64,000 nucleotides of DNA, from assembly GCA_022605955.1 (NCBI GenBank), contig JAKCOZ010000021.1:14186161-14250160 (forward strand), read 5' to 3'. The position numbers were made by a program, and so were the translations under genes. Shown here one piece after another: positions 30,192 to 64,000 of this stretch (its first letter is position 1; each line of letters begins with the position of its first letter). The stretch comes from Rallus limicola (lineage: Eukaryota; Chordata; Aves; Gruiformes; Rallidae). The notes beneath the pieces were generated by a model, which saw nothing but the letters and a program-made list of their open reading frames with translations, did no database searches and was not told where the DNA came from.

Positions 30192-30244
30192 TCACCATGT
30201 GTGAAGGAAAAGCTCGGCCTTCGCCTTGAGATCATTTGTGCAGG

Positions 30245-30480
30245 TGTGGTGGTTTGGCCCTGGCTAGAGGCCAAATGCCCACCAAGCCGCTCGCTCACTC
30301 CCTCTTCTCAGCCCAACACGGGAGAAAATATATGGTGGGAGGCTTAGGACCTGAGATGAGGACGGAGGGGTGACTTTCCAATTAGAGCAATGGGCCAGAC
30401 AGAGTCAGCACAGAGTAAAAGAAAGAAAAGGGATTTACTACTACTACGACTACCCAGGCAGTGAACCAGAGTCCTTGCAT
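30245..30480 (+). mobile_element. LTR-like block at the head of each array unit
   Basis: Starts TGTGGTGGTTTGGCCCTGGC and continues with GCCCACCAAGCCGCTCGCTC, AACACGGGAGAAAATATATG (AACAGGGG in later units) and AGATAAGGACAGAGGGG-type wording. This is the 5' end of a long terminal repeat family common in bird genomes, which I recognise from memory. The copies start at 30245, 33722, 37199, 40676, 44153, 47606, 51142 and 54658. The right boundary is uncertain. No retroviral gene accompanies it, so it is a solo or partial LTR amplified with the unit. It lies about 650 bp upstream of each start codon and could supply promoter elements; that is inference. Confidence 0.65.
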
Positions 30481-30898
30481 TTCTTCCCGCTTGGCAAGGA
30501 CGCCTGCTTCACTTCACAGAGGGGCGCAGGAGTTGAGGCGGGATGGGGCCTGTGCAGATGAACTCTCAAAGCCAGGTCAGCAAGAATGGGTGGTCCATAG
30601 ACCTGGGGTCCTGCAGGCGGGCCCCCCACATGGACCAGTGGGCAGCAGCTGGGCGTGCAGTGGCCAGTGCAGTGATGCAACAGTAGGTAGCCAGGGGAAC
30701 GTGGTGATGTAACAATGAGGCCACGTGATGATGCACCAGTGTGGGGCTGCTCTCTAGCTGCTGGCTGTGTCTGGGACCTCAGATCGGTACCTCTGGAGCA
30801 AGAGGAGTGAGCGCAGTGTCGCAGCTCCTGGACAGCTCTTGGAAGGAACCATAGAGTACTGCCACACTGTTGGCGCCCAAAAGGCACTGAGGAGCACA

Positions 30899-33120
30899 AT
30901 GGAAAAAAGGAGAGAGGTAAGCAGCGGGCTGATGGAGAGGGCCCAGCTCTGGGACCACGGCACCTGCCGTTTCTTACCACTGCCTATTGAGCTGGGATCT
31001 GAGTGTCTCTGTCTTCCTAGGTCAAGCCCGGAAGCGAGCACCTGGGAGAATGGCTGCTGGGCCTCCCACTCGGGGCCAAGGTCCCTGTGTCACCTCACTC
31101 CGAGCATGTCTTCACTAGGGGAAAGCTGGGGAAAATGGTAAGGGAAGTGGAAAGGGGCAGAGAAGCTCTCTTCTTTTAGGGGGTCCCCGTCATTCAGAGA
31201 TGTCCTTGTGGCCACCTGCTGTGCACTGGGAGCTGCAGCCCCTCCACCGCACAGGGCTGGGGAGTTGAGGGAGCCTCTTGGCTCTGCAGTGCCAAGAAAA
31301 AAGAAGGCCTCACCCATAGCAGCGCTCCAGGCTGGGCAGAGCTGCGTGAAGTAAAAGTGTTGCTCATCCACCTCAAAAAACACAGCTTGGCACCTCTGGG
31401 GAGCCCAATCCCGGTTTGCAGGCAGAGCAAAGTGCCAGGGGGAAAGAGGGGGCTGTGGGAAGCATTTCAGCTGAGCTCCTTACAGGGGCTGCAGCACTGG
31501 ACACAACCCTCACAGTCCTGCAGTACACAGCTCCTTGAATTCCTACAGCAACAGTCCATGGCCACCACATAGCGGATGTGGGCAGAGGCGGCTTCTCTGC
31601 TGGAGAGTCTCCGGGGTGCTGATCTTTCCCCCGGGTGGGACATAAGCCGGGAATTAGTCTAGACCTGGGAGGTTTGGAAATGCCCTCCCATGTGCGTGAT
31701 GAGGTCGGGAGTGTGTTGGTTGCTACTGCTCTGCCTGCCCCCTTCATACTCAGGAACATGCATCCCTCTTGCAGCTTCACCAGCCATCCGGCTATTTTAA
31801 CCTGGGAGATCCCTGCTGTCGCCAGTTGAGCACAGAGTACAACAGCCTGCATGACCCACACCTAAAGAAGTATTTCAACCACAAAGACAACCTCCAAATG
31901 CTGAGGAGAGAGGGCTTCATCACCAGCGACGACAGAGTAGGCTTGGGTGTCTCTGGCCTGGTGAAAAGAGTTCCCTCCGAGGAGGGTTCTCTGAGCCAGA
32001 GACAGTGTATGCAGAGGAGCAGCTCCCCTCCTGCTGCTTGGGTTGGGGCTGCTTTGGGGAAGGCAGTCTGCGTAGCTGGCTTGACAGTGCTTGGGTGATT
32101 TCTCCCCTCACCTCTCCATAGGTGGTGTGCACTGTGAAGGAGTACAATGAGTACAGAAACTATCTGACCAGGCTCAGGCTGGACATAGAGGCAGTGGCCC
32201 GGCAAGAAAAGGTAAGCGAAGCCAAGGGGTGGCAGATACGCGTCAGCAGCACGGTGCTGAGCCCCTGGGCTTGACTGGCTGCATCTCGGGGAGGCCGACA
32301 GTGCAGAGGAGGGGAGGGCTGTCATGGTGGCCTGGGCATTGTGGCAGCGAAAGGACTAACCCTCTGGGAGCTGAGCTAGCACAGGTTGGGCATGGGCAGG
32401 AAGGTGGCGTGCGGGCACGTGAGGTGCTCTGGGAAGCCCTTCTCTTAGGCCCTCATTGCCAGGCTGAAGCAGAGCGCCGGCCTGGGCCCGTGCGATGCCT
32501 CAGCACGCATGGCCGTGAGTGCTTCCGCAGGCAACAGCGAGCTGCAACCTCCTGTCTCCTTTCAGGAAAGGCTTCAGACACGCCTGACCACATTTAAGGA
32601 TGCCTCCAAAGTGACAGACACTTCTCCCTCGTTACTGCGGCGGCAGCAGGCTCAAAAACCACGTTGCCCAACTCCACCCAAGCACAGAACAAGCTCCTTC
32701 AAATCCAAGGGATGCAGAGGAGAGAAAGGAGCTTGGGACAAAGACCGCACCAAGTCCCATGCTGAGATGGGGCAGGAAGGTGCCAAGCTGCCTGGCAGTG
32801 TCACGAGGATCTCTCAGTGCAGGCCTGTGCTGACTCCTGAACCGAACAGTGAAAGGCCAGTTCCAAAACCGCCTGCACAGCGAGGCCGAACTGGCAGCTC
32901 TCTCGCTGAGGATGGCGTCCCCTCCACGGGCCCGCACTTCTCCCAGCAGCCTGTCCCTCCTCTGCATCCAAAGCCCTCTGCCCACACAGGAGCACAGCGC
33001 AGAGGGCTGCGCTTCAAACCTCTCTGTGGGGAGACCCAGACAGCCGGGTCGGAAGCGAGGGCCTTGCCTGGGAGGATCGTGGATGATCTCCTGGGGAGCT
33101 GTGTGCCACGAGATGTGTAG
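30899..33120 (+). CDS. FSIP2-like N-terminal mini-gene, copy 1
   Basis: Predicted six-exon gene, 335 codons: 30899-30916, 31021-31137, 31775-31936, 32122-32211, 32449-32514, 32566-33120. All introns are GT-AG and phase 0. Residues 7-45 (LGLPLGAKVPVSP), 46-99 (GYFNLGDPCCRQLSTEYNSL, HDPHLKKYFNHKDNL, RREGFITSDDR) and 100-129 (VVCTVKEYNEYRNYLTRLRL) match, in order, the start of fibrous sheath-interacting protein 2, a very large sperm flagellum protein. Residues 152-335 are a basic Pro/Ser/Arg/Gln-rich tail I do not recognise. The start ATG has a good context (ACAATGG) and is the first in-frame ATG after a TAG at about 30,757. Introns are kept, so this is not a retrocopy. It lacks nearly all of FSIP2, so any role as a fibrous-sheath protein or as a competitor of full-length FSIP2 is inference. 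The exon 5/6 boundary may not be spliced (see the 51-nt segment). Here residues TAG occur in exon 6 near 33,041-33,049. Confidence 0.75.
32515..32565 (+). other. 51-nt in-frame segment: mini-intron or retained coding
   Basis: Lies between exon 5 (ends ATGGCC) and exon 6 (starts GAAAGG). It begins GTGAGT and ends TCTCCTTTCAG, both good splice sites, yet it is only 51 nt and would read through without a stop (VSASAGNSELQPPVSFQ). That is shorter than typical vertebrate introns. Retention would give 352 residues in place of 335. All eight copies keep both the length and the open frame. Confidence 0.6.
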
Positions 33121-33356
33121 AGACTCTGTGCGGCTCCCCCAGGCAGCTATGGGAAATGGAAAAGTGGCCCTGGGAAGGAGAAAGAAGCTGAAAAGCAGGA
33201 AGGAGGGTCGTCGTTTAGCAGGGAGGTGGCACGGTGTGCTTTGTCAGGAGGAGCCCCCAAGCTGGGACAACCTTTTGTGTAGGAATGTTGTAGTTCTAGT
33301 ATTCATGAAAAGCCCTGAAACCTGACTCGAGGCTGCTGCGTCAGCCATCGAGAGGG

Positions 33357-33384
33357 TATAAAATTTTGCTCAGTTGTTATTAAA
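33357..33384 (+). terminator. Probable 3' end signals of the mini-gene
   Basis: About 240 bp after the stop codon comes TATAAAA (33357-33363), then ATTAAA (33379-33384), the common variant poly(A) signal. The TATAAAA repeats at 36834, 40311, 43788, 47241, 50718, 54273 and 57770. Units 6-8 also have a canonical AATAAA about 115 bp further on (50839, 54387, 57891). A TATA word followed by AATAAA also resembles the U3-R layout of an LTR, so this could be a retroelement remnant serving as a 3' end. Confidence 0.5.
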
Positions 33385-33668
33385 GTTGTCTTCGATCCAC
33401 CACGCTCTTCAATACGCCACAGGCCGCAAACTCTATTGCAGACACCAGGGGCGCAGCTTCATTCAAGCCAGGCCACGCTGGGTCTGGGCCTTTTCCCGGC
33501 CATAATCTGCCTGACGTTCTTCCCTCCTACAGCGTGTGTCACACTGAGACCCAGTTTCACAGGGCACCGTAAGGAGGGAGGCGAGAAGCAGCCAGCATTT
33601 GGGCCACATTTAGCAAGCCTTGCCAGGGGGCTACTGGAGGGAGGGTGCAGTTCTAGGAAGCCTGGTAT

Positions 33669-36600
33669 TCACCGTGTGTGAAGGAAAAGCTCGGCCTTCG
33701 CCTTGAGATCGTTTGTGCAGGTGTGGTGGTTTGGCCCTGGCTAGAGGCCAAATGCCCACCAAGCTGCTCGCTCACTCCCTCTTCTCAGCCCAACAGGGGA
33801 GAAAATATATGGTGGGAGGCTTAGGACCTGAGATAAGGACAGAGGGGTGACTTTCCAATTAGAGCAATGGGCCAGACAGACTCAGCACAGAGTAAAAGAA
33901 AGAAAAGGGATTTACTACTACTACGACTACCCAGGCAGTGAACCAGAGTCCTTGCATTTCTTCCCGCTTGGCAAGGACGCCTGCTTCACTTCACAGAGGG
34001 GCGCAGGAGTTGAGGCGGGATGGGGCCTGTGCAGATGAACTCTCAAAGCCAGGTCAGCAAGAATGGGTGGTCCATAGACCTGGGGTCCTGCAGGCGGGCC
34101 CCCCACATGGACCAGTGGGCAGCAGCTGGGCGTGCATTGGCCAGTGCAGTGATGCAACAGTAGGTAGCCAGGGGAACGTGGTGATGTAACAATGAGGCCA
34201 CGTGATGATGCACCAGTGTAGGGCTGCTCTCTAGCTGCTGGCTGTGTCTGGGACCTCAGATCGGTACCTCTGGAGCAAGAGGAGTGAGCGCAGTGTCGCA
34301 GCTCCTGGACAGCTCTTGGAAGGAACCATAGAGTACTGCCACACTGTTGGCGCCCAAAAGGCACTGAGGAGCACAATGGAAAAAAGGAGAGAGGTAAGCA
34401 GCGGGCTGATGGAGAGGGCCCAGCTCTGGGACCACGGCACCTGCCGTTTCTTACCACTGCCTATTGAGCTGGGATCTGAGTGTCTCTGTCTTCCTAGGTC
34501 AAGCCCGGAAGCGAGCACCTGGGAGAATGGCTGCTGGGCCTCCCACTCGGGGCCAAGGTCCCTGTGTCACCTCACTCCGAGCATGTCTTCACTAGGGGAA
34601 AGCTGGGGAAAATGGTAAGGGAAGTGGAAAGGGGCAGAGAAGCTCTCTTCTTTTAGGGGGTCCCCGTCATTCAGAGATGTCCTTGTGGCCACCTGCTGTG
34701 CACTGGGAGCTGCAGCCCCTCCACCGCACAGGGCTGGGGAGTTGAGGGAGCCTCTTGGCTCTGCAGTGCCAAGAAAAAAGAAGGCCTCACCCATAGCAGC
34801 GCTCCAGGCTGGGCAGAGCTGCGTGAAGTAAAAGTGTTGCTCATCCACCTCAAAAAACACAGCTTGGCACCTCTGGGGAGCCCAATCCCGGTTTGCAGGC
34901 AGAGCAAAGTGCCAGGGGGAAAGAGGGGGCTGTGGGAAGCATTTCAGCTGAGCTCCTTACAGGGGCTGCAGCACTGGACACAACCCTCACAGTCCTGCAG
35001 TACACAGCTCCTTGAATTCCTACAGCAACAGTCCATGGCCACCACATAGCGGATGTGGGCAGAGGCGGCTTCTCTGCTGGAGAGTCTCCGGGGTGCTGAT
35101 CTTTCCCCCGGGTGGGACATAAGCCGGGAATTAGTCTAGACCTGGGAGGTTTGGAAATGCCCTCCCATGTGCGTGATGAGGTCGGGAGTGTGTTGGTTGC
35201 TACTGCTCTGCCTGCCCCCTTCATACTCAGGAACATGCATCCCTCTTGCAGCTTCACCAGCCATCCGGCTATTTTAACCTGGGAGATCCCTGCTGTCGCC
35301 AGTTGAGCACAGAGTACAACAGCCTGCATGACCCACACCTAAAGAAGTATTTCAACCACAAAGACAACCTCCAAATGCTGAGGAGAGAGGGCTTCATCAC
35401 CAGCGACGACAGAGTAGGCTTGGGTGTCTCTGGCCTGGTGAAAAGAGTTCCCTCCGAGGAGGGTTCTCTGAGCCAGAGACAGTGTATGCAGAGGAGCAGC
35501 TCCCCTCCTGCTGCTTGGGTTGGGGCTGCTTTGGGGAAGGCAGTCTGCGTAGCTGGCTTGACAGTGCTTGGGTGATTTCTCCCCTCACCTCTCCATAGGT
35601 GGTGTGCACTGTGAAGGAGTACAATGAGTACAGAAACTATCTGACCAGGCTCAGGCTGGACATAGAGGCAGTGGCCCGGCAAGAAAAGGTAAGCGAAGCC
35701 AAGGGGTGGCAGATACGCGTCAGCAGCACGGTGCTGAGCCCCTGGGCTTGACTGGCTGCATCTCGGGGAGGCCGACAGTGCAGAGGAGGGGAGGGCTGTC
35801 ATGGTGGCCTGGGCATTGTGGCAGCGAAAGGACTAACCCTCTGGGAGCTGAGCTAGCACAGGTTGGGCATGGGCAGGAAGGTGGCGTGCGGGCACGTGAG
35901 GTGCTCTGGGAAGCCCTTCTCTTAGGCCCTCATTGCCAGGCTGAAGCAGAGCGCCGGCCTGGGCCCGTGCGATGCCTCAGCACGCATGGCCGTGAGTGCT
36001 TCCGCAGGCAACAGCGAGCTGCAACCTCCTGTCTCCTTTCAGGAAAGGCTTCAGACACGCCTGACCACATTTAAGGATGCCTCCAAAGTGACAGACACTT
36101 CTCCCTCGTTACTGCGGCGGCAGCAGGCTCAAAAACCACGTTGCCCAACTCCACCCAAGCACAGAACAAGCTCCTTCAAATCCAAGGGATGCAGAGGAGA
36201 GAAAGGAGCTTGGGACAAAGACCGCACCAAGTCCCATGCTGAGATGGGGCAGGAAGGTGCCAAGCTGCCTGGCAGTGTCACGAGGATCTCTCAGTGCAGG
36301 CCTGTGCTGACTCCTGAACCGAACAGTGAAAGGCCAGTTCCAAAACCGCCTGCACAGCGAGGCCGAACTGGCAGCTCTCTCGCTGAGGATGGCGTCCCCT
36401 CCACGGGCCCGCACTTCTCCCAGCAGCCTGTCCCTCCTCTGCATCCAAAGCCCTCTGCCCACACAGGAGCACAGCGCAGAGGGCTGCGCTTCAAACCTCT
36501 CTGTGGGGAGACCCAGACAACTGGGTCGGAAGCGAGGGCCTTGCCTGGGAGGATCGTGGATGATCTCCTGGGGAGCTGTGTGCCACGAGATGTGTAGAGA

Positions 36601-37145
36601 CTCTGTGCGGCTCCCCCAGGCAGCTATGGGAAATGGAAAAGTGGCCCTGGGAAGGAGAAAGAAGCTGAAAAGCAGGAAGGAGGGTCGTCGTTTAGCAGGG
36701 AGGTGGCACGGTGTGCTTTGTCAGGAGGAGCCCCCAAGCTGGGACAACCTTTTGTGTAGGAATGTTGTAGTTCTAGTATTCATGAAAAGCCCTGAAACCT
36801 GACTCGAGGCTGCTGCGTCAGCCATCGAGAGGGTATAAAATTTTGCTCAGTTGTTATTAAAGTTGTCTTCGATCCACCACGCTCTTCAATACGCCACAGG
36901 CCGCAAACTCTATTGCAGACACCAGGGGCGCAGCTTCATTCAAGCCAGGCCACGCTGGGTCTGGGCCTTTTCCCGGCCATAATCTGCCTGACGTTCTTCC
37001 CTCCTACAGCGTGTGTCACACTGAGACCCAGTTTCACAGGGCACCGTAAGGAGGGAGGCGAGAAGCAGCCAGCATTTGGGCCACATTTAGCAAGCCTTGC
37101 CAGGGGGCTACTGGAGGGAGGGTGCAGTTCTAGGAAGCCTGGTAT
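33669..37145 (+). repeat. Array unit 2 of 8 (3,477 bp)
   Basis: Same length as unit 1 and nearly identical to it. Private differences seen by eye include AAGCTGCTCG for AAGCCGCTCG near 33,763 and GTGCATTGGCC for GTGCAGTGGCC near 34,136. Confidence 0.97.
34376..36597 (+). CDS. FSIP2-like N-terminal mini-gene, copy 2
   Basis: Exons 34376-34393, 34498-34614, 35252-35413, 35599-35688, 35926-35991 and 36043-36597; 335 codons. By eye the predicted protein differs from copy 1 only in exon 6, where ACAACTGGG (TTG in one-letter code) replaces ACAGCCGGG (TAG). All splice sites are unchanged. Its introns are as similar to copy 1 as its exons are, so the identity reflects recency or exchange and not protein constraint alone. 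Confidence 0.75.
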
Positions 37146-40100
37146 TCACCGTGTGTGAAGGAAAAGCTCGGCCTTCGCCTTGAGATCGTTTGTGCAGGTG
37201 TGGTGGTTTGGCCCTGGCTAGAGGCCAAATGCCCACCAAGCCGCTCGCTCACTCCCTCTTCTCAGCCCAACAGGGGAGAAAATATATGGTGGGAGGCTTA
37301 GGACCTGAGATAAGGACAGAGGGGTGACTTTCCAATTAGAGCAATGGGCCAGACAGACTCAGCACAGAGTAAAAGAAAGAAAAGGGATTTACTACTACTA
37401 CGACTACCCAGGCAGTGAACCAGAGTCCTTGCATTTCTTCCCGCTTGGCAAGGACGCCTGCTTCACTTCACAGAGGGGCGCAGGAGTTGAGGCGGGATGG
37501 GGCCTGTGCAGATGAACTCTCAAAGCCAGGTCAGCAAGAATGGGTGGTCCATAGACCTGGGGTCCTGCAGGCGGGCCCCCCACATGGACCAGTGGGCAGC
37601 AGCTGGGCGTGCAGTGGCCAGTGCAGTGATGCAACAGTAGGTAGCCAGGGGAACGTGGTGATGTAACAATGAGGCCACGTGATGATGCACCAGTGTAGGG
37701 CTGCTCTCTAGCTGCTGGCTGTGTCTGGGACCTCAGATCGGTACCTCTGGAGCAAGAGGAGTGAGCGCAGTGTCGCAGCTCCTGGACAGCTCTTGGAAGG
37801 AACCATAGAGTACTGCCACACTGTTGGCGCCCAAAAGGCACTGAGGAGCACAATGGAAAAAAGGAGAGAGGTAAGCAGCGGGCTGATGGAGAGGGCCCAG
37901 CTCTGGGACCACGGCACCTGCCGTTTCTTACCACTGCCTATTGAGCTGGGATCTGAGTGTCTCTGTCTTCCTAGGTCAAGCCCGGAAGCGAGCACCTGGG
38001 AGAATGGCTGCTGGGCCTCCCACTCGGGGCCAAGGTCCCTGTGTCACCTCACTCCGAGCATGTCTTCACTAGGGGAAAGCTGGGGAAAATGGTAAGGGAA
38101 GTGGAAAGGGGCAGAGAAGCTCTCTTCTTTTAGGGGGTCCCCGTCATTCAGAGATGTCCTTGTGGCCACCTGCTGTGCACTGGGAGCTGCAGCCCCTCCA
38201 CCGCACAGGGCTGGGGAGTTGAGGGAGCCTCTTGGCTCTGCAGTGCCAAGAAAAAAGAAGGCCTCACCCATAGCAGCGCTCCAGGCTGGGCAGAGCTGCG
38301 TGAAGTAAAAGTGTTGCTCATCCACCTCAAAAAACACAGCTTGGCACCTCTGGGGAGCCCAATCCCGGTTTGCAGGCAGAGCAAAGTGCCAGGGGGAAAG
38401 AGGGGGCTGTGGGAAGCATTTCAGCTGAGCTCCTTACAGGGGCTGCAGCACTGGACACAACCCTCACAGTCCTGCAGTACACAGCTCCTTGAATTCCTAC
38501 AGCAACAGTCCATGGCCACCACATAGCGGATGTGGGCAGAGGCGGCTTCTCTGCTGGAGAGTCTCCGGGGTGCTGATCTTTCCCCCGGGTGGGACATAAG
38601 CCGGGAATTAGTCTAGACCTGGGAGGTTTGGAAATGCCCTCCCATGTGCGTGATGAGGTCGGGAGTGTGTTGGTTGCTACTGCTCTGCCTGCCCCCTTCA
38701 TACTCAGGAACATGCATCCCTCTTGCAGCTTCACCAGCCATCCGGCTATTTTAACCTGGGAGATCCCTGCTGTCGCCAGTTGAGCACAGAGTACAACAGC
38801 CTGCATGACCCACACCTAAAGAAGTATTTCAACCACAAAGACAACCTCCAAATGCTGAGGAGAGAGGGCTTCATCACCAGCGACGACAGAGTAGGCTTGG
38901 GTGTCTCTGGCCTGGTGAAAAGAGTTCCCTCCGAGGAGGGTTCTCTGAGCCAGAGACAGTGTATGCAGAGGAGCAGCTCCCCTCCTGCTGCTTGGGTTGG
39001 GGCTGCTTTGGGGAAGGCAGTCTGCGTAGCTGGCTTGACAGTGCTTGGGTGATTTCTCCCCTCACCTCTCCATAGGTGGTGTGCACTGTGAAGGAGTACA
39101 ATGAGTACAGAAACTATCTGACCAGGCTCAGGCTGGACATAGAGGCAGTGGCCCGGCAAGAAAAGGTAAGCGAAGCCAAGGGGTGGCAGATACGCGTCAG
39201 CAGCACGGTGCTGAGCCCCTGGGCTTGACTGGCTGCATCTCGGGGAGGCCGACAGTGCAGAGGAGGGGAGGGCTGTCATGGTGGCCTGGGCATTGTGGCA
39301 GCGAAAGGACTAACCCTCTGGGAGCTGAGCTAGCACAGGTTGGGCATGGGCAGGAAGGTGGCGTGCGGGCACGTGAGGTGCTCTGGGAAGCCCTTCTCTT
39401 AGGCCCTCATTGCCAGGCTGAAGCAGAGCGCCGGCCTGGGCCCGTGCGATGCCTCAGCACGCATGGCCGTGAGTGCTTCCGCAGGCAACAGCGAGCTGCA
39501 ACCTCCTGTCTCCTTTCAGGAAAGGCTTCAGACACGCCTGACCACATTTAAGGATGCCTCCAAAGTGACAGACACTTCTCCCTCGTTACTGCGGCGGCAG
39601 CAGGCTCAAAAACCACGTTGCCCAACTCCACCCAAGCACAGAACAAGCTCCTTCAAATCCAAGGGATGCAGAGGAGAGAAAGGAGCTTGGGACAAAGACC
39701 GCACCAAGTCCCATGCTGAGATGGGGCAGGAAGGTGCCAAGCTGCCTGGCAGTGTCACGAGGATCTCTCAGTGCAGGCCTGTGCTGACTCCTGAACCGAA
39801 CAGTGAAAGGCCAGTTCCAAAACCGCCTGCACAGCGAGGCCGAACTGGCAGCTCTCTCGCTGAGGATGGCGTCCCCTCCACGGGCCCGCACTTCTCCCAG
39901 CAGCCTGTCCCTCCTCTGCATCCAAAGCCCTCTGCCCACACAGGAGCACAGCGCAGAGGGCTGCGCTTCAAACCTCTCTGTGGGGAGACCCAGACAACTG
40001 GGTCGGAAGCGAGGGCCTTGCCTGGGAGGATCGTGGATGATCTCCTGGGGAGCTGTGTGCCACGAGATGTGTAGAGACTCTGTGCGGCTCCCCCAGGCAG

Positions 40101-40622
40101 CTATGGGAAATGGAAAAGTGGCCCTGGGAAGGAGAAAGAAGCTGAAAAGCAGGAAGGAGGGTCGTCGTTTAGCAGGGAGGTGGCACGGTGTGCTTTGTCA
40201 GGAGGAGCCCCCAAGCTGGGACAACCTTTTGTGTAGGAATGTTGTAGTTCTAGTATTCATGAAAAGCCCTGAAACCTGACTCGAGGCTGCTGCGTCAGCC
40301 ATCGAGAGGGTATAAAATTTTGCTCAGTTGTTATTAAAGTTGTCTTCGATCCACCACGCTCTTCAATACGCCACAGGCCGCAAACTCTATTGCAGACACC
40401 AGGGGCGCAGCTTCATTCAAGCCAGGCCACGCTGGGTCTGGGCCTTTTCCCGGCCATAATCTGCCTGACGTTCTTCCCTCCTACAGCGTGTGTCACACTG
40501 AGACCCAGTTTCACAGGGCACCGTAAGGAGGGAGGCGAGAAGCAGCCAGCATTTGGGCCACATTTAGCAAGCCTTGCCAGGGGGCTACTGGAGGGAGGGT
40601 GCAGTTCTAGGAAGCCTGGTAT
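37146..40622 (+). repeat. Array unit 3 of 8 (3,477 bp)
   Basis: No length change against units 1, 2 and 4. I found no private differences by eye, so it represents the consensus of units 2-6. Confidence 0.97.
37853..40074 (+). CDS. FSIP2-like N-terminal mini-gene, copy 3
   Basis: Exons 37853-37870, 37975-38091, 38729-38890, 39076-39165, 39403-39468 and 39520-40074; 335 codons. The predicted protein appears identical to copy 2. Confidence 0.75.
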
Positions 40623-43600: not shown

Positions 43601-44099
43601 CTGGGAAGGAGAAAGAAGCTGAAAAGCAGGAAGGAGGGTCGTCGTTTAGCAGGGAGGTGGCACGGTGTGCTTTGTCAGGAGGAGCCCCCAAGCTGGGACA
43701 ACCTTTTGTGTAGGAATGTTGTAGTTCTAGTATTCATGAAAAGCCCTGAAACCTGACTCGAGGCTGCTGCGTCAGCCATCGAGAGGGTATAAAATTTTGC
43801 TCAGTTGTTATTAAAGTTGTCTTCGATCCACCACGCTCTTCAATACGCCACAGGCCGCAAACTCTATTGCAGACACCAGGGGCGCAGCTTCATTCAAGCC
43901 AGGCCACGCTGGGTCTGGGCCTTTTCCCGGCCATAATCTGCCTGACGTTCTTCCCTCCTACAGCGTGTGTCACACTGAGACCCAGTTTCACAGGGCACCG
44001 TAAGGAGGGAGGCGAGAAGCAGCCAGCATTTGGGCCACATTTAGCAAGCCTTGCCAGGGGGCTACTGGAGGGAGGGTGCAGTTCTAGGAAGCCTGGTAT
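40623..44099 (+). repeat. Array unit 4 of 8 (3,477 bp)
   Basis: Like unit 3, except that near the end of the gene it carries the CAGCCGGGTC variant otherwise seen only in unit 1. Confidence 0.97.
41330..43551 (+). CDS. FSIP2-like N-terminal mini-gene, copy 4
   Basis: Exons 41330-41347, 41452-41568, 42206-42367, 42553-42642, 42880-42945 and 42997-43551; 335 codons. The predicted protein appears identical to copy 1, including the TAG residues in exon 6, although copies 2 and 3 lie between them. Confidence 0.75.
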
Positions 44100-47000: not shown

Positions 47001-47552
47001 GTAGAGACTCTGTGCGGCTCCCCCAGGCAGCTATGGGAAATGGAAAAGTGGCCCTGGGAAGGAGAAAGAAGCTGAAAAGCAGGAAGGAGGGTCGTCGTTT
47101 AGCAGGGAGGTGGCACGGTGTGCTTTGTCAGGAGGAGCCCCCAAGCTGGGACAACCTTTTGTGTAGGAATGTTGTAGTTCTAGTATTCATGAAAAGCCCT
47201 GAAACCTGACTCGAGGCTGCTGCGTCAGCCATCGAGAGGGTATAAAATTTTGCTCAGTTGTTATTAAAGTTGTCTTCGATCCACCACGCTCTTCAATACG
47301 CCACAGGCCGCAAACTCTATTGCAGACACCAGGGGCGCAGCTTCATTCAAGCCAGGCCACGCTGGGTCTGGGCCTTTTCCCGGCCATAATCTGCCTGACG
47401 TTCTTCCCTCCTACAGCGTGTGTCACACTGAGACCCAGTTTCACAGGGCACCGTAAGGAGGGAGGCGAGAAGCAGCCAGCATTTGGGCCACATTTAGCAA
47501 GCCTTGCCAGGGGGCTACTGGAGGGAGGGTGCAGTTCTAGGAAGCCTGGTAT
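44100..47552 (+). repeat. Array unit 5 of 8 (3,453 bp, 24-bp deletion)
   Basis: A 24-bp deletion near 44,388 removes sequence between TTGCATT and GCTTCACTTC, upstream of the gene's start codon. The direct word TGC/GCTT at the break points suggests a short-homology slip. Two private changes lie in intron 2 (GGGAGTATG and GCCTCCCCCC near 45,594-45,625). Confidence 0.97.
44783..47004 (+). CDS. FSIP2-like N-terminal mini-gene, copy 5
   Basis: Exons 44783-44800, 44905-45021, 45659-45820, 46006-46095, 46333-46398 and 46450-47004; 335 codons. The protein is as copy 2. A silent GCG to GCA change near 46,939 is shared with copies 6 and 7. The 24-bp deletion of this unit lies about 390 bp upstream of the start and does not touch the frame. 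Confidence 0.75.
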
Positions 47553-50500
47553 TCACCGTGTGTGAAGGAAAAGCTCGGCCTTCGCCTTGAGATCGTTTGT
47601 GCAGGTGTGGTGGTTTGGCCCTGGCTAGAGGCCAAATGCCCACCAAGCCGCTCGCTCACTCCCTCTTCTCAGCCCAACAGGGGAGAAAATATATGGTGGG
47701 AGGCTTAGGACCTGAGATAAGGACAGAGGGGTGACTTTCCAATTAGAGCAATGGGCCAGACAGACTCAGCACAGAGTAAAAGAAAGAAAAGGGATTTACT
47801 ACTACTACGACTACCCAGGCAGTGAACCAGAGTCCTTGCATTTCTTCCCGCTTGGCAAGGACGCCTGCTTCACTTCACAGAGGGGCGCAGGAGTTGAGGC
47901 GGGATGGGGCCTGTGCAGATGAACTCTCAAAGCCAGGTCAGCAAGAATGGGTGGTCCATAGACCTGGGGTCCTGCAGGCGGGCCCCCCACATGGACCAGT
48001 GGGCAGCAGCTGGGCGTGCAGTGGCCAGTGCAGTGATGCAACAGTAGGTAGCCAGGGGAACGTGGTGATGTAACAATGAGGCCACGTGATGATGCACCAG
48101 TGTGGGGCTGCTCTCTAGCTGCTGGCTGTGTCTGGGACCTCAGATCGGTACCTCTGGAGCAAGAGGAGTGAGCGCAGTGTCGCAGCTCCTGGACAGCTCT
48201 TGGAAGGAACCATAGAGTACTGCCACACTGTTGGCGCCCAAAAGGCACTGAGGAGCACAATGGAAAAAAGGAGAGAGGTAAGCAGCGGGCTGATGGAGAG
48301 GGCCCAGCTCTGGGACCACGGCACCTGCCGTTTCTTACCACTGCCTATTGAGCTGGGATCTGAGTGTCTCTGTCTTCCTAGGTCAAGCCCGGAAGCGAGC
48401 ACCTGGGAGAATGGCTGCTGGGCCTCCCACTCGGGGCCAAGGTCCCTGTGCCACCTCACTCCGAGCATGTCTTCACTAGGGGAAAGCTGGGGAAAATGGT
48501 AAGGGAAGTGGAAAGGGGCAGAGAAGCTCTCTTCTTTTAGGGGGTCCCCGTCATTCAGAGATGTCCTTGTGGCCACCTGCTGTGCACTGGGAGCTGCAGC
48601 CCCTCCACCGCACAGGGCTGGGGAGTTGAGGGAGCCTCTTGGCTCTGCAGTGCCAAGAAAAAAGAAGGCCTCACCCATAGCAGCGCTCCAGGCTGGGCAG
48701 AGCTGCGTGAAGTAAAAGTGTTGCTCATCCACCTCAAAAAACACAGCTTGGCACCTCTGGGGAGCCCAATCCCGGTTTGCAGGCAGAGCAAAGTGCCAGG
48801 GGGAAAGAGGGGGCTGTGGGAAGCATTTCAGCTGAGCTCCTTACAGGGGCTGCAGCACTGGACACAACCCTCACAGTCCTGCAGTACACAGCTCCTTGAA
48901 TTCCTACAGCAACAGTCCATGGCCACCACATAGCGGATGTGGGCAGAGGCGGCTTCTCTGCTGGAGAGTCTCCGGGGTGCTGATCTTTCCCCCGGGTGGG
49001 ACATAAGCCGGGAATTAGTCTAGACCTGGGAGGTTTGGAAATGCCCTCCCATGTGCGTGATGAGGTCGGGAGTGTGTTGGTTGCTACTGCTCTGCCTGCC
49101 CCCTTCATACTCAGGAACATGCATCCCTCTTGCAGCTTCACCAGCCATCCGGCTATTTTAACCTGGGAGATCCCTGCTGTCGCCAGTTGAGCACAGAGTA
49201 CAACAGCCTGCATGACCCACACCTAAAGAAGTATTTCAACCACAAAGACAACCTCCAAATGCTGAGGAGAGAGGGCTTCATCACCAGCGACGACAGAGTA
49301 GGCTTGGGTGTCTCTGGCCTGGTGAAAAGAGTTCCCTCCGAGGAGGGTTCTCTGAGCCAGAGACAGTGTATGCAGAGGAGCAGCTCCCCTCCTGCTGCTT
49401 GGGTTGGGGCTGCTTTGGGGAAGGCAGTCTGCGTAGCTGGCTTGACAGTGCTTGGGTGATTTCTCCCCTCACCTCTCCATAGGTGGTGTGCACTGTGAAG
49501 GAGTACAATGAGTACAGAAACTATCTGACCAGGCTCAGGCTGGACATAGAGGCAGTGGCCCGGCAAGAAAAGGTAAGCGAAGCCAAGGGGTGGCAGATAC
49601 GCGTCAGCAGCACGGTGCTGAGCCCCTGGGCTTGACTGGCTGCATCTCGGGGAGGCCGACAGTGCAGAGGAGGGGAGGGCTGTCATGGTGGCCTGGGCAT
49701 TGTGGCAGCGAAAGGACTAACCCTCTGGGAGCTGAGCTAGCACAGGTTGGGCATGGGCAGGAAGGTGGCGTGCGGGCACGTGAGGTGCTCTGGGAAGCCC
49801 TTCTCTTAGGCCCTCATTGCCAGGCTGAAGCAGAGCGCCGGCCTGGGCCCGTGCGATGCCTCAGCACGCATGGCCGTGAGTGCTTCCGCAGGCAACAGCG
49901 AGCTGCAACCTCCTATCTCCTTTCAGGAAAGGCTTCAGACACGCCTGACCACATTTAAGGATGCCTCCAAAGTGACAGACACTTCTCCCTCGTTACTGCG
50001 GCGGCAGCAGGCTCAAAAACCACGTTGCCCAACTCCACCCAAGCACAGAACAAGCTCCTTCAAATCCAAGGGATGCAGAGGAGAGAAAGGAGCTTGGGAC
50101 AAAGACCGCACCAAGTCCCATGCTGAGATGGGGCAGGAAGGTGCCAAGCTGCCTGGCAGTGTCACGAGGATCTCTCAGTGCAGGCCTGTGCTGACTCCTG
50201 AACCGAACAGTGAAAGGCCAGTTCCAAAACCGCCTGCACAGCGAGGCCGAACTGGCAGCTCTCTCGCTGAGGATGGCGTCCCCTCCACGGGCCCGCACTT
50301 CTCCCAGCAGCCTGTCCCTCCTCTGCATCCAAAGCCCTCTGCCCACACAGGAGCACAGCGCAGAGGGCTGCGCTTCAAACCTCTCTGTGGGGAGACCCAG
50401 ACAACTGGGTCGGAAGCAAGGGCCTTGCCTGGGAGGATCGTGGATGATCTCCTGGGGAGCTGTGTGCCACGAGATGTGTAGAGACTCTGTGCGGCTCCCC

Positions 50501-51088
50501 CAGGCAGCTATGGGAAATGGAAAAGTGGCCCTGGGAAGGAGAAAGAAGCTGAAAAGCAGGAAGGAGGGTCGTCGTTTAGCAGGGAGGTGGCACGGTGTGC
50601 TTTGTCAGGAGGAGCCCCCAAGCTGGGACAACCTTTTGTGTAGGAATGTTGTAGTTCTAGTATTCATGAAAAGCCCTGAAACCTGACTCGAGGCTGCTGC
50701 GTCAGCCATCGAGAGGGTATAAAATTTTGCTCAGTTGTTATTAAAGTTGTCTTCGATCCACCATCCACCACAGTCGGAGTCTGTGCTCTTCAATACGCCA
50801 CAGGCCGCAAACTCAAGAGTTTACCCCCTGGTGTCTGCAATAAAGAGTTTATTCCCCAGTGCTTGCTTGGGCGCCGCTTCATTCAAGCCAGGCCACGCTG
50901 GGTCTGGGCCTTTTCCCGGCCATAATCTGCCTGACGTTCTTCCCTCCTACAGCATGTGTCACACTGAGACCCAGTTTCACAGGGCACCGTAAGGAGGGAG
51001 GCGTGAAGCAGCCAGCATTTGGGCCACGTTTAGCAAGCCTTGCCAGGGGGCTACTGGAGGGAGGGTGCAGTTCTAGGAAGCCTGGTAT
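47553..51088 (+). repeat. Array unit 6 of 8 (3,536 bp)
   Basis: Nearly identical to units 1-5 over the gene. Its 3' flank is 59 bp longer and of the other haplotype: it holds CCACAGTCGGAGTCTGTG and a segment with AATAAA at 50839-50844 that units 1-5 lack. It is thus a junction unit with the body of units 1-5 and the tail of units 7-8. Confidence 0.97.
48260..50481 (+). CDS. FSIP2-like N-terminal mini-gene, copy 6
   Basis: Exons 48260-48277, 48382-48498, 49136-49297, 49483-49572, 49810-49875 and 49927-50481; 335 codons. In exon 2, TCA becomes CCA, so Ser30 is Pro, as in copy 7. The 51-nt segment before exon 6 has a GTC to ATC change (Val to Ile if retained). Confidence 0.75.
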
Positions 51089-54000
51089 TCACCGTGTGTG
51101 AAGGAAAAGCTCGGCCTTCGCCTTGAGATCGTTTGTGCAGGTGTGGTGGTTTGGCCCTGGCTAGAGGCCAAATGCCCACCAAGCCGCTCGCTCACTCCCT
51201 CTTCTCAGCCCAACAGGGGAGAAAATATATGGTGGGAGGCTTAGGACCTGAGATAAGGACAGAGGGGTGACTTTCCAATTAGAGCAATGGGCCAGACAGA
51301 CTCAGCACAGAGTAAAAGAAAGAAAAGGGATTTACTACTACTACGACTACCCAGGCAGTGAACCAGAGTCCTTGCATTTCTTCCCGCTTGGCAAGGACGC
51401 CTGCTTCACTTCACAGAGGGGCGCAGGAGTTGAGGCGGGATGGGGCCTGTGCAGATGAACTCTCAAAGCCAGGTCAGCAAGAATGGGTGGTCCATAGACC
51501 TGGGGTCCTGCAGGCGGGCCCCCCACATGGACCAGTGGGCAGCAGCTGGGCGTGCAGTGGCCAGTGCAGTGATGCAACAGTAGGTAGCCAGGGGAACATG
51601 GTGATGTAACAATGAGGCCACGTGATGATGCACCAGTGTAGGGCTGCTCTCTAGCTGCTGGCTGTGTCTGGGACCTCAGATCGGTACCTCTGGAGCAAGA
51701 GGAGTGAGCGCAGTGTCGCAGCTCCTGGACAGCTCTTGGAAGGAACCATAGAGTACTGCCACACTGTTGGCACCCAAAAGGCACTTGAGGAGCACAATGG
51801 AAAAAAGGAGAGAGGTAAGCAGCGGGCTGATGGAGAGGGCCCAGCTCTGGGACCACGGCACCTGCCGTTTCTTACCACTGCCTATTGAGCTGGGATCTGA
51901 GTGTCTCTGTCTTCCTAGGTCAAGCCCGGAAGCGAGCACCTGGGAGAATGGCTGCTGGGCCTCCCACTCGGGGCCAAGGTCCCTGTGCCACCTCACTCCG
52001 AGCATGTCTTCACTAGGGGAAAGCTGGGGAAAATGGTAAGGGAAGTGGAAAGGGGCAGAGAAGCTCTCTTCTTTTAGGGGGTCCCCGTCATTCAGAGATG
52101 TCCTTGTGGCCACCTGCTGTGCACTGGGAACTGCAGCCCCTCCACCGCACAGGGCTGGGGAGTTGAGGGAGCCTCTTGGCTCTGCAGTGCCAAGAGAAAG
52201 GAGACCTCGCCCATAGCAGCGCTCCAGGCTGGGCAGAGCTGCATGAAGCAAAAATGTTGCTCTTCCACCTAAGAAACCCTTCACCTTTCCCTGAGGACAG
52301 CTTGGCACCTCTGGGGAGCCCAATCCCGGTTTGCAGGCATAGCAAATTGCAAGGGGGAAAGAGGGGGCTGTGGACAGCATTTCAGCTGAGCTCCTTACAG
52401 GGGCGGCAGCACTGGACACAACCCTCACAGTCCTGCAGTACACAGGTCCTTGAATTCCTACAGCAACAGTCCATGGCCACCACATAGCGGATGTGGGCAG
52501 AGGCTTTTTCTCTGCTGGACAGTCTCCGGGGTGCTGATCTTTCCCCCGGGTGGGACATAAGCCGGGAATTAGTCTAGACCTGGGAGGTTTGGAAATGCCC
52601 TCCCATGTGCGTGATGAGGTCAGGAGTGTGTTGGTTGCTACTGCTCTGCCTGCCCCCATCATACTCAGGAACATGCATCCCTCTTGCAGCTTCACCAGCC
52701 ATCCGGCTATTTTAACCTGGGAGATCCCTGCTGTCGCCAGTTGAGCACAGAGTACAACAACCTGCACGACCCACACCTAAAGAAGTATTTCAACCACAAA
52801 GACAACCTCCAAAGGCTGAGGAGAGAGGGCTTCATCACCAGCGACGACAGAGTAGGCTTGGGTGTCTCTGGCCTGGTGAAAAGAGTTCCCTCCGAGGAGG
52901 GTTCTCTGAGCCAGAGACAGTGTATGCAGAGGAGCAGCTCCCCTCCTGCTGCTTGGGTTGGGGCTGCTTTGGGGAAGGCAGTCTGCGTAGCTGGCTTGAC
53001 AGTGCTTGGGTGATTTCTCCCCTCACCTCTCCATAGGTGGTGTGCACTGTGAAGGAGTACAATGAGTACAGAAACTATCTGACCAGGCTCAGGCTGGACA
53101 TAGAGGCAGTGGCCCGGCAAGAAAAGGTAAGCGAAGCCAAGGGGTGGCAGATACGCGTCAGCATCACGGTGCTGAGTCCCTGGGCTTGACTGGTTGCATC
53201 TCGGGGAGGCCGACAGTGCAGAGGAGGGGAGGGCTGTCATGGTGGCCTGGGCATTGTGGCAGCGAAAGGACTAACCCTCTGGGAGCTGAGCTAGCACAGG
53301 TTGGGCATGGGCAGGAAGGTGGCGTGCGGGCACGTGAGGTGCTCTGGGAAGCCCTTCTCTTAGGCCCTCATTGCCAGGCTGAAGCAGAGCGCTGGCCTGG
53401 GCCCCTGTGATGCTTCAGCACGCATGGCCGTGAGTGCTTCCGCAGGCAACAGCGAGCTGCAACCTCCTGTCTCCTTTCAGGAAAGGCTTCAGACACGCCT
53501 GACCACATTTAAGGATGCCTCCAAAGTGACAGACACTTCTCCCTCGTTACTGCGGCGGCAGCAGGCTCAAAAACCACGTTGCCCAGCTCCACCCAAGCAC
53601 AGAACAAGCTCCTTCAAATCCAAGGGATGCAGAAGAGAGAAAGGAGCTTGGGACAAAGACCGCACCAAGTCCCATGCTGAGATGGGGCAGGAAGGTGCCA
53701 AGCTGCCTGGCAGTGTCACGAGGATCTCTCAGTGCAGGCCTGTGCTGACTCCTGAACCGAACAGTGAAAGGCCAGTTCCAAAACCGCCTGCACAGCGAGG
53801 CCGAACTGGCAGCTCTCTCGCTGAGGATGGCGTCCCCTCCACGGGCCCGCACTTCTCCCGGCAGCCTGTCCCTCCTCTGCATCCAAAGCCCTCTGCCCAC
53901 ACAGGAGCACAGCGCAGAGGGCTGCGCTTCAAACCTCTCTGTGGGGAGACCCAGACGCCCGGGTCGGAAGCAAGGGCCTTGCCTGGGAGGATTAGGGATG

Positions 54001-54604
54001 CTCTCCTAAGGAGATGTGTGCCAAGTTGATGTGTAGAGACTCTGTGCGGCTCCCCCAGGCAGCTGTGGGAAATGGAAAAGTGGCCCTGGGAAGGAGAAAG
54101 AAGCTGAAAAGCAGGAAGGAGGGTCGTCGTTTAGCAGGGAGGTGGCACGGTGTGCTTTGTCAGGAGGAGCCCCCAAGCTGGGACAACCTTTTGTGTAGGA
54201 ATGTTGTAGTTCTAGTATTCATGAAAAGCCCTGAAACCTGACTCGAGGCTGCTGCGTCAGCCATCGAGAGGGTATAAAATTTTGCTCAGTTGTTATTAAA
54301 GTTGTCTTCGATCCACCACAGTCAGAGTCTGTGCTCTTCAATACGCCACAGGCTGCAAACTCAAGAGTTTACCCCCTGGTGTCTGCAATAAAGAGTTTAT
54401 TCCCCAGGCCACGCTGGGTCTGGGCCTTTTCCTGGCCATAATCTGCCTGACGTTCTTCCCTCCTACAGCGTGTGTCACACTGAGACCCAGTTTCACAGGG
54501 CACCGTAAGGAGGGAGGCGAGAAGCAGCCAGCATTTGGGCCACATTTAGCAAGCCTTGCCAGGGGGCTACTGGAGGGAGGGTGCAGTTCTAGGAAGCCTG
54601 GTAT
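51089..54604 (+). repeat. Array unit 7 of 8 (3,516 bp, diverged)
   Basis: Visibly more diverged than units 1-6. About 52,190-52,310 in intron 2 has many substitutions and roughly 20-30 extra bases. A one-base insertion (GGCACTTGAGG) lies just upstream of the start codon near 51,785. Its 3' flank joins TTTATTCCCCAGG directly to the CCACGCTGGG spacer, dropping about 30 bp kept in units 6 and 8. Confidence 0.96.
51797..54029 (+). CDS. FSIP2-like N-terminal mini-gene, copy 7
   Basis: Exons 51797-51814, 51919-52035, 52690-52851, 53037-53126, 53364-53429 and 53481-54029; 333 codons. Changes against copy 1 include Ser30Pro, Ser69Asn, Met87Arg and several in exon 6. The four differences I see in exon 5 are all silent. 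The protein ends RIRDALLRRCVPS followed by TGA, two residues earlier than copies 1-6 (DLLGSCVPRDV, TAG). The one-base insertion upstream of the ATG breaks the longer upstream open frame found in the other copies, which supports the ATG as the true start. Confidence 0.7.
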
Positions 54605-57600
54605 TCACCGTGTGTGAAGGAAAAGCTCGGCCTTCGCCTTGAGATCGTTTGTGCAGGTGTGGTGGTTTGGCCCTGGCTAGAGGCCAAATGCCCACCAAGC
54701 CGCTCGCTCACTCCCTCTTCTCAGCCCAACAGGGGAGAAAATATATGGTGGGAGGCTTAGGACCTGAGATAAGGACAGAGGGGTGACTTTCCAATTAGAG
54801 CAATGGGCCAGACAGACTCAGCACAGAGTAAAAGAAAGAAAAGGGATTTACTACTACTACGATTACCCAGGCAGTGAACCAGAGTCCTTGCATTTCTTCT
54901 CGCTTGGCAAGGACGCCTGCTTCACTTCACAGAGGGGCGCAGGAGTTGAGGCGGGATGGGGCCTGTGCAGATGAACTCTTAAAGCCAGGTCAGCAAGAAT
55001 GGGTGGTCCATAGACCTGGGGTCCTGCAGGCGGGCCCCCCACATGGACCAGTGGGCAGCAGCTGGGCGTGCAGTGGCCAGTGCAGTGATGCAACAGTAGG
55101 TAGCCAGGGGAACGTGGTGATGTAACAATGAGGCCACATGATGATGCACCAGTGTGGGCTGCTCTCTAGCTGCTGGCTGTGTCTGGGACCTCAGATCGGT
55201 ACCTCTGGAGCAAGAGGAGTGAGCGCAGTGTCGCAGCTCCTGGACAGCTCTTGGAAGGAACCATAGAGTACTGCCACACTGTTGGCGCCCAAAAGGCACT
55301 GAGGAGCACAATGGAAAAAAGGAGAGAGGTAAGCAGCGGGCTGATGGAGAGGGCCCAGCTCTGGGACCACGGCACCTGCCGTTTCTTACCACTGCCTATT
55401 GAGCTGGGATCTGAGTGTCTCTGTCTTCCTAGGTCAAGCCCGGAAGCGAGCACCTGGGAGAATGGCTGCTGGGCCTCCCACTCGGGGCCAAGGTCCCTGT
55501 GTCACCTCACTCCGAGCATGTCTTCACTAGGGGAAAGCTGGGGAAAATGGTAAGGGAAGTGGAAAGGGGCAGAGAAGCTCTCTTCTTTTAGGGGGTCCCC
55601 GTCATTCAGAGATGTCCTTGTGGCCACCTGCTGTCCACTGGGAGCTGCAGCCCCTCCACCGCACAGGGCTGGGGAGTTGAGGGAGCCTCTTGGCTCTGCA
55701 GTGCCAAGAAAAAAGAAGGCCTCACCCATAGCAGCGCTCCAGGCTGGGCAGAGCTGCGTGAAGTAAAAGTGTTGCTCATCCACCTCAAAAAACACAGCTT
55801 GGCACCTCTGGGGAGCCCAATCCCGGTTTGCAGGCAGAGCAAAGTGCCAGGGGGAAAGAGGGGGCTGTGGGCAGCATTTCAGCTGAGCTCCTTACAGGGG
55901 TGGCAGCACTGGGCACAACCCTCACAGTCCTGCAGTACACAGCTCCTTGAATTCCTACAGCAACAGTCCATGGCCACCACATAGCGGATGTGGGCAGAGG
56001 CGGCTTCTCTGCTGGAGAGTCTCCGGGGTGCTGATCTTTCCCCCGGGTGGGACATAAGCCGGGAATTAGTCTAGACCTGGGAGGTTTGGAAATGCCCTCC
56101 CATGTGCGTGATGAGGTCGGGAGTGTGTTGGTTACAACTGCTCTGCCTGCCCCCTTCATACTCAGGAACATGCATCCCTCTTGCAGCTTCACCAGCCATC
56201 CGGCTATTTTAACCTGGGAGATCCCTGCTGTCGCCAGTTGAGCACAGAGTACAACAACCTGCATGACCCACACCTAAAGCAGCATTTTAACCACAAAGAC
56301 AACCTCCAAATGCTGAGGAGAGAGGGCTTCATCACCAGCGACGACAGAGTAGGCTTGGGTGTCTCTGGCCTGGTGAAAAGAGTTCCCTCCGAGGAGGGTT
56401 CTCTGAGCCAGAGACAGTGTATGCAGAGGAGCAGCTCCCCTCCTGCTGCTTGGGTTGGGGCTGCTTTGGGGAAGGCAGTCTGCGTAGCTGGCTTGACAGT
56501 GCTTGGGTGATTTCTCCCCTCACCTCTCCATAGGTGGTGTGCACTGTGAAGGAGTACAATGAGTACAGAAACTATCTGACCAGGCTCAGGCTGGACATAG
56601 AGGCAGTGGCCCGGCGAGAAAAGGTAAGCGAAGCCAAGGGGTGGCAGATACGCGTCAGCAGCACGGTGCTGAGCCCCTGGTCTTGACTGGCTGCATCTCG
56701 GGGAGGCCATCAGTGCAGAGGAGGGGAGGGCTGTCATGGTGGCCTGGGCATTGTGGCAGCGAAAGGACTACCCCTCTGGGAGCTGAGCTAGCACAGGTTG
56801 GGCATGGGCAGGAAGGTGGCGTGCGGGCACGTGAGGTGCTCTGGGAAGCCCTTCTCTTAGGCCCTCATTGCCAGGCTGAAGCAGAGCGCTGGCCTGGGCC
56901 CCTGTGATGCTTCAGCACGCATGGCCGTGAGTGCTTCCGCAGGCAACAGCGAGCTGCAACCTCCTGTCTCCTTTCAGGAAAGGCTTCAGACACGCCTGAC
57001 CACATTTAAGGATGCCTCCAAAGTGACAGACACTTCTTCCTCGTTACTGCGGCGGCAGCAGGCTCAAAAACCACGTTGCCCAACTCCACCCAAGCACAGA
57101 ACAAGCTCCTTCAAATCCAAGGGATGCAGAGGAGAGAAAGGAGCTTGGGACAAAGACCGCACCAAGTCCCATGCTGAGATGGGGCAGGAAGGTGCCAAGC
57201 TGCCTGGCAGTGTCACGAGGATCTCTCAGTGCAGGCCTGTGCTGACTCCTGAACCGAACAGTGAAAGGCCAGTTCCAAAACCGCCTGCACAGCGAGGCCG
57301 AACTGGCAGCTCTCTCGCTGAGGATGGCGTCCCCTCCACGGGCCCACACTTCTCCCGGCAGCCTGTCCCTCCTCTGCATCCAAAGCCCTCTGCCCACACA
57401 GGAGCACAGCGCAGAGGGCTGCGCTTCAAACCTCTCTGTGGGGAGACCCAGACGCCCGGGTCGGAAGCGAGGGCCTTGCCTGGGAGGATTAGGGATGCTC
57501 TCCTAAGGAGATGTGTGCCAAGTTGATGTGTAGAGACTCTGTGCGGCTCCCCCAGGCAGCTGTGGGAAATGGAAAAGTGGCCCTGGGAAGGAGAAAGAAG

Positions 57601-58140
57601 CTGAAAAGCAGGAAGGAGGGTCGTCGTTTAGCAGGGAGGTGGCACGGTGTGCTTTGTCAGGAGGAGCCCCCAAGCTGGGACAACCTTTTGTATAGGAATG
57701 TTGTAGTTCTAGTATTCATGAAAAGCCCTGAAACCTGACTCGAGGCTGCTGCGTCAGCCATCGAGAGGGTATAAAATTTTGCTCAGTTGTTATTAAAGTT
57801 GTCTTCGATCCACCATCCACCACAGTCGGAGTCTGTGCTCTTCAATACGCCACAGGCCGCAAACTCAAGAGTTTACCCCCTGGTGTCTGCAATAAAGAGT
57901 TTATTCCCCAGTGCTTGCTTGGGCGCAGCTTCATTCAAGCCAGGCCACGCTGGGTCTGGGCCTTTTCCCGGCCATAATCTGCCTGACGTTCTTCCCTCCT
58001 ACAGCGTGTGTCACACTGAGACCCAGTTTCACAGGGCACCGTAAGGAGGGAGGCGAGAAGCAGCCAGCATTTGGGCCACGTTTAGCAAGCCTTGCCAGGG
58101 GGCTACTGGAGGGAGGGTGCAGTTCTAGGAAGCCTGGTAT
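54605..58140 (+). repeat. Array unit 8 of 8 (3,536 bp, diverged)
   Basis: Last complete unit. It shares the alternative gene end and AATAAA-bearing 3' flank of unit 7, but its intron 2 is of the unit 1-6 type. A ninth unit starts at 58141 but homology stops at about 58187, after the leader. Confidence 0.97.
55311..57526 (+). CDS. FSIP2-like N-terminal mini-gene, copy 8
   Basis: Exons 55311-55328, 55433-55549, 56187-56348, 56534-56623, 56861-56926 and 56978-57526; 333 codons. Private changes fall in the FSIP2-like core: Lys77Gln and Tyr78His (LKQHFNH for LKKYFNH) and Gln127Arg. Ser69Asn and the alternative C-terminus are shared with copy 7. Splice sites and frame are intact. Confidence 0.7.
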
Positions 58141-58187
58141 TCACCGTGTGTGAAGGAAAAGCTCGGCCTTCGCCTTGAGATCGTTTG
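58141..58187 (+). repeat. Truncated ninth unit leader
   Basis: The first 47 bases of a further unit, identical in wording to the other leaders. Homology then stops just before the position where the LTR-like block begins in units 1-8. Confidence 0.85.
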
Positions 58188-60300: not shown

Positions 60301-60403
60301 GTTTGGAAATGCCCTCCCATGGGTGTGGTGAGCTCGGAAGTGTGTTGGTTGCTACTGCTCTGCCTGCCCCCTTCATACTCAGGAACATGCATCCCTCTTG
60401 CAG

Positions 60404-62201: not shown

Positions 62202-64000
<1,799 letters not shown>

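Follow-up and report, generated by a model that had tools for sequence, protein, structure and literature searches.

In the 64,000 nucleotides of Rallus limicola DNA analysed here (contig JAKCOZ010000021.1, positions 14,186,161 to 14,250,160 of the forward strand; the window), we found a small predicted gene in eight tandem copies, the product of which carries, by homology and Pfam scan, the N-terminal module of FSIP2 and lacks the FSIP2 domain. A role of this product in the sperm tail appears likely. For the full reading, i.e. eight copies of a gene for a likely sperm-tail protein with a dose that rises with copy number, we find belief and doubt about evenly balanced.

30199..58147, forward strand: eight-unit head-to-tail array, from 20-mer self-matches and anchor positions

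Anchor positions and unit lengths bear out the eight head-to-tail units of 3,453-3,536 bp described in the initial annotation. A 27-base anchor places the unit starts at 30199, 33676, 37153, 40630, 44107, 47560, 51096 and 54612, and its ninth occurrence at 58148 closes the array; four units measure 3477 bp, the others 3453, 3536, 3516 and 3536 bp. Strong 20-mer self-matches start at the left edge of the array, and the 20-mer scan found no repeated 20-mer left of ~30000. Tandem Repeats Finder does not list the array because the longest period of this tool is 500. Pairwise divergence among units 1-6 is only 0.06-0.69% (units 2-4 are separated by 2-4 bases), while units 7 and 8 are 1.3-2.0% away from units 1-6 and from one another; the array therefore arose or was homogenised recently. 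Since units 1-6 are near-identical and units 7 and 8 diverged, the eight frames amount to roughly three independent observations; they are not eight independent facts, and that all of them are intact is only weak evidence that the gene is used. Copy 7 or 8 is separated from copy 1 by 17 substitutions, and in simulations that many random changes leave a frame open in 59% of runs.

The copies, from start to stop, are as follows:
30899..33120, forward strand: copy 1; coding exons 30899-30916, 31021-31137, 31775-31936, 32122-32211 and 32566-33120 (five-exon model, 313 aa)
34376..36597, forward strand: copy 2, open frame
37853..40074, forward strand: copy 3, open frame
41330..43551, forward strand: copy 4, open frame
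44783..47004, forward strand: copy 5, open frame
48260..50481, forward strand: copy 6, open frame
51797..54029, forward strand: copy 7, diverged, with another 3' end, a diverged patch in intron 2 and one base inserted upstream of the ATG
55311..57526, forward strand: copy 8, diverged, with a 3' coding patch in common with copy 7
32449..32514, forward strand: exon 5 of the six-exon model in copy 1 (66 nt; the intron after it would have 51 nt), probably part of an intron
30851..30853, forward strand: ATA in copy 1 where many relatives have their start codon; the same in all eight copies
33357..33384, forward strand: TATAAA (33357) and ATTAAA (33379), ~240-260 nt past the stop of copy 1; the pair is present in all eight units

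Start, frame, stop and splice sites are preserved, as the initial annotation had stated: in none of the eight copies is its six-exon frame interrupted (335 residues in six of them, 333 in two), and all 80 splice borders carry GT/AG. The number of exons, however, probably has to be lowered to five. Exon numbers here follow the six-exon model, in which exon 6 is the last exon; in the relatives described below, the junction of exon 4 with the last exon, taken as in the five-exon model, is gapless in 86 of the 103 alignments that span it, and the frame is kept where the two are joined directly, as in bird relatives. For the 66-nt exon 5 the aligned relatives offer no convincing match. Because the relatives' exon 4 runs into the last exon, and because exon 5 is unmatched and leaves a 51-nt intron, five coding exons are favoured and exon 5 is probably not a real exon; the product would probably have 313 residues, or 311 in copies 7 and 8 (the figure for copy 7 being taken from exon lengths). 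The predicted product is basic, with an isoelectric point (pI) of 9.8, and its tail has a pI of 10.2 and 13% proline. In all eight copies ATA replaces the start codon of many relatives, and the frame opens at an ATG 16 codons downstream. The first exon of many relatives (e.g. MEHRLAAGVRKADALLSALGKRRE of P0003) can be traced in frame upstream of this ATG as IEYCHTVGAQKALRSTMEKRRE; in copy 7 the inserted base additionally breaks that upstream frame. In passerine relatives the start lies elsewhere. TATAAA and ATTAAA lie 22 bases apart behind every stop, and AATAAA is also kept in units 6-8; the pair may mark the end of one copy's transcript and the start of the next.

The proposed resemblance to the beginning of FSIP2 was confirmed by a search of 5.8 billion proteins, which gave 26 relatives: a mammalian FSIP2 record (Galemys, P0024) matches the window product with E=1.9e-21, and 23 bird proteins, with names that include FSIP2, FSIP2-like and uncharacterized, score above it. 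The homology to FSIP2 spans the first ~130 residues. That the rest of FSIP2 is missing also holds, as the window product matches no Pfam family at E<=10 and hence lacks the FSIP2 domain PF15783, with the caveat that short FSIP2 records (P0024 and P0122) can lack this domain too. PF15783 was found in turtle P0086 and Chinchilla P0120; it occurs in 0 of 16 bird relatives scanned and is absent from the precomputed Pfam annotation of the listed birds. Full-length FSIP2, which shares the N-terminal module, has 6907 residues in human according to PMC11276731, compared to 311-313 in the window product.

A profile search yielded 224 relatives, 120 of which were listed; together with the first search this makes 124 distinct listed proteins. 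Named birds account for 86 of them (45 species; isoforms and joined gene models included), and the remainder comprises 30 from named mammals, three from turtles, one from a lizard and four without a species name. The listed birds are neognaths. No palaeognath or crocodile appears by name among the matches listed, which are the best-scoring candidates of limited length and so no proof of absence; full-length FSIP2 lies far outside that range. A careful tree, built from 52 hand-picked relatives out of 172 plus two window copies (54 rows; shark root), places all 35 bird rows, window copies included, in one clade (100/100, stem 0.43) that adjoins the turtle sequences (fork 97/78). Ten mammal rows form a separate clade (98/90), among them mouse LOC209005 (P0134), which is probably Fsip2l, as its contig has the length of mouse X. 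A quick tree that took in 67 of the 124 relatives gave a single bird clade of 60 rows including three window copies, with a support of 100 in the Shimodaira-Hasegawa-like approximate likelihood ratio test (SH-aLRT). By these trees the bird copies sampled group together, to the exclusion of turtle, lizard and mammal FSIP2, and since birds and mammals fall into distinct clades, the bird mini-FSIP2 and the mammalian FSIP2-like genes are separate. FSIP2L has been named in mammals (PMC9825485), and mouse Fsip2l is placed on chrX in PMC9729108. It is likewise a separate FSIP2-like gene, without exclusive shared ancestry with the bird family, which arose independently, given that the mammal rows form their own clade. 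In the quick tree the window copies join Heliangelus and Pogoniulus (85); the careful one leaves them unplaced among birds.

The initial annotation had suggested a lineage-specific family. The truncation is not private, being listed for 45 bird species, with the sampled bird copies in one clade, and the eightfold expansion alone is; judged from sequence, the array is one species' expansion of a family found in many birds. The window copies share with this family (e.g. Gallus LOC101752265 and LOC112530124, Larus LOC141738341) the N-terminal module and the junction of exon 4 with the last exon, and with several relatives the C-terminal motif PHF..QP.PP..PKP...GA.RR; not all relatives carry this conserved proline-rich tail. 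They differ by standing in eight near-identical tandem units, and they lack a middle segment and the start codon that many relatives have. For pintail (P0009, P0019) and flamingo (P0083), three of the 124 listed proteins, the gene models fuse this family with the MMP24-type exon that the window has at 25563-25760. The MMP24 neighbourhood of the window, visible in these three, is therefore probably old. In the pintail and flamingo models the family lies on the strand of MMP24, in the window on the opposite one; read-through, inversion or several copies could account for this. Relatives P0002 (Larus) and P0016 (Coturnix) sit on contigs of 170 and 135 Mb and many others on contigs of ~12-19 Mb; given the former two, some family copies may have moved to other chromosomes. 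In the hawfinch Coccothraustes coccothraustes, eight listed proteins (P0031, P0034, P0036-P0038, P0055, P0067, P0071) come from one 17.96-Mb contig, which probably carries another large expansion of the family. Chicken P0001 (Gallus LOC101752265) contains the domain twice, which resembles two tandem copies joined by splicing.

That the predicted product was constrained in the past is best seen in columns scored over 48 bird relatives, hand-picked from the 86. The window keeps 32 of the 36 near-invariant domain columns (>=95% conserved), the four departures being I27V, E44K, R81H and F107Y, and this suggests that the core was constrained for much of the lineage's history. Among less conserved domain columns, 15 of 27 are kept at 80-95% conservation and 26 of 36 at 50-80%. 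The tail retains all 7 of its columns in the 80-95% class (the C-terminal proline-rich motif). The differences between copies are clustered: 20 of the 34 private differences of copy 7 lie in one stretch of 331 columns, and copies 7 and 8 have a common patch of 11 differences in 100 columns, densities reached in 0 of 5000 shuffles each. We infer that these are conversion patches. G+C and the observed/expected CpG ratio (CpG o/e) of the units (0.57-0.58 and 0.35-0.36) are higher than those of the left flank (0.44 and 0.06), as expected under frequent gene conversion, with other causes possible.

The module is predicted to be helical, with two short helices, a turn with a conserved GxITxD..VVCTxKE stretch and one long helix; the proline- and arginine-rich tail is probably disordered. 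In the model of owl relative P0004 the better parts are residues ~100-170 (two short helices, turn, long helix) and a further helix, at 264-289, most of which is missing from the window product. FSIP2 binds AKAP4 and is required for the flagellum (PMC11276731, PMC9830513). We propose that a single founding copy of the FSIP2 5' exons would have been placed beside MMP24, without the rest of FSIP2, before the divergence of the sampled birds, and re-amplified in separate lineages through unequal crossing-over, with gene conversion keeping tandem copies alike. The module would, in spermatids, bind to the flagellar site used by the FSIP2 N-terminus, without the FSIP2 parts that join the AKAP4 scaffold, and would thus serve on its own as a docking module of the flagellum, its dose set by copy number. 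The still wider idea that neognaths, on losing the ribs and columns of the sheath, kept and repeatedly amplified this freed piece as a stand-alone docking protein, the eight-copy array reflecting a dose driven up by selection among sperm, is one that we regard as improbable. If expressed in spermatids, the gene would be a case in which nature has parted the N-terminal module of FSIP2 from the remainder of the protein, in animals without a classical sheath, and would therefore show what the module does; as a multi-copy gene with lineage-by-lineage expansions it would also offer a handle on dosage and sperm competition in birds. In the open-licence literature, judged by titles and abstract openings, we found no paper on a bird FSIP2-like family.

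Several observations weigh against a functional, dosed sperm-tail protein. The ratio of nonsynonymous to synonymous substitution rates (dN/dS) across diverged copies, a check proposed in the initial annotation, was determined and is 0.58-1.10 in comparisons involving copies 7 or 8; with few changes this is close to neutral, and there is no clear constraint between copies. The start codon of many relatives is lost, and the stem of the window lineage is long in both trees (0.43-0.49 changes per column), both of which one would expect where constraint on a gene is fading. The model of the owl relative is weak, with a mean predicted local distance difference test score (pLDDT) of 55, and no solved structure was found to match it; for the window product no relative of solved structure was found. 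Neognath sperm are described in PMC11276731 as lacking the ribs and columns of the fibrous sheath, so the classical site of FSIP2 is missing in these birds. Mouse Fsip2l is CREB1-responsive according to PMC9729108; near the start of the window gene there is no site like a cAMP response element (CRE), TGACGTCA at one mismatch occurs 5 times in the window versus 14.8 expected, and the only TGACGT half-site of a unit precedes the ATG of the following unit by ~860 nt. In favour of separate expansions, same-species copies pair in the careful tree for Coturnix, Columba and Heliangelus and in the quick tree for Gallus (81), Calonectris (88) and Accipiter (83), with identical rows for Phalacrocorax and Phoenicopterus; against them, no such pairing is seen in the quick tree for Numida, Phasianus, Larus, Passer and Pipra. 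With the caveat that isoforms may be among the rows, several lineages would have expanded or converted their copies repeatedly, and others would have older duplicates.

Part of this evidence would equally be expected if the array were young, amplified in the manner of a satellite from a gene whose function is being lost in this lineage, its frames open only through recency and homogenisation. The similarity of copies 1-6, the near-neutral dN/dS, the survival of most simulated frames, the lost start and the broken relics that adjoin the array all fit such a loss, whereas the retained near-invariant and tail residues, the intact splice borders and the frames of copies 7 and 8, still open at ~2% divergence, do not; we lean against it while taking it as a serious possibility. 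The bird family could also be the FSIP2 ortholog itself, shortened in birds, and not a duplicate beside a full-length gene. The single bird clade next to turtles and the lack of PF15783 in the birds scanned or listed would agree with this, but full-length FSIP2 lies far beyond the length range of our searches, so that its absence there means nothing, and PMC11276731 counts FSIP2 among proteins widely represented in vertebrates; we consider this reading unlikely. If a full-length protein does exist in these birds, the product might compete with it by filling the N-terminal binding site and so limit growth of the sheath. The product has the N-terminal module without PF15783, and PMC11276731 reports that truncated FSIP2 without the second AKAP4 site binds AKAP4 poorly; yet no partner of the FSIP2 N-terminus turned up in the analysis and no full-length bird FSIP2 was seen in the length-limited protein searches, which makes competition quite improbable. 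That the count of eight is an assembly effect, an array of other length having been expanded or collapsed, is suggested by the few bases between units 2-4; private marks in some units (a 24-bp deletion in unit 5, a private patch in unit 7) speak against it, and we hold it to be very unlikely.

The surroundings of the predicted FSIP2-like array contain the following features:
464..25760, reverse strand: MMP24 exon matches (464-670, 15648-15959, 18135-18191, 25563-25760; ends approximate), Pfam Matrixin and match to the human MMP24 protein, MMP24 being the only MMP compared
26900..28500, no strand: CpG-rich block, GC 0.65, CpG o/e 0.66
30245..30340, forward strand: dispersed-repeat fragment near the head of each unit (right end approximate)
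58421..60952, forward strand: broken relic copies, from sequence matches to the array gene
62205..63018, reverse strand: MAP1LC3A exons (62205-62366, 62911-63018), matches over 54 and 36 residues, each 100% identical to human MAP1LC3A

The flanks had been called housekeeping-like, a description that is not supported as stated; they are MMP24, a membrane metalloproteinase gene, and MAP1LC3A. The CpG-rich block is probably the promoter and first exon of MMP24. The relics consist of an exon-6 piece at 58421-58849 (77%), the start of exon 6 at 59958-60084 (66%), exon 3 with intron at 60299-60663 (96%) and further pieces at 60661-60747 and 60878-60952. The dispersed repeat has a sharp TGTGGTGG edge in common with copies at 28924-29012 (reverse strand) and 59397-59485 (forward strand). 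Within the relic zone, a full-model Rfam match to U6 small nuclear RNA (59807-59916, reverse strand, 58.5 bits) is probably a retrocopy. A weak reverse-transcriptase match (RVT_1, 23722-24285, reverse strand, E 0.005, below cut-off) is probably a retroelement remnant within MMP24. CpG o/e is 0.03-0.07 over positions 1-24000 (MMP24 introns) versus 0.31-0.38 in the array, which for positions 1-24000 looks like a very strong CpG loss for a vertebrate flank.

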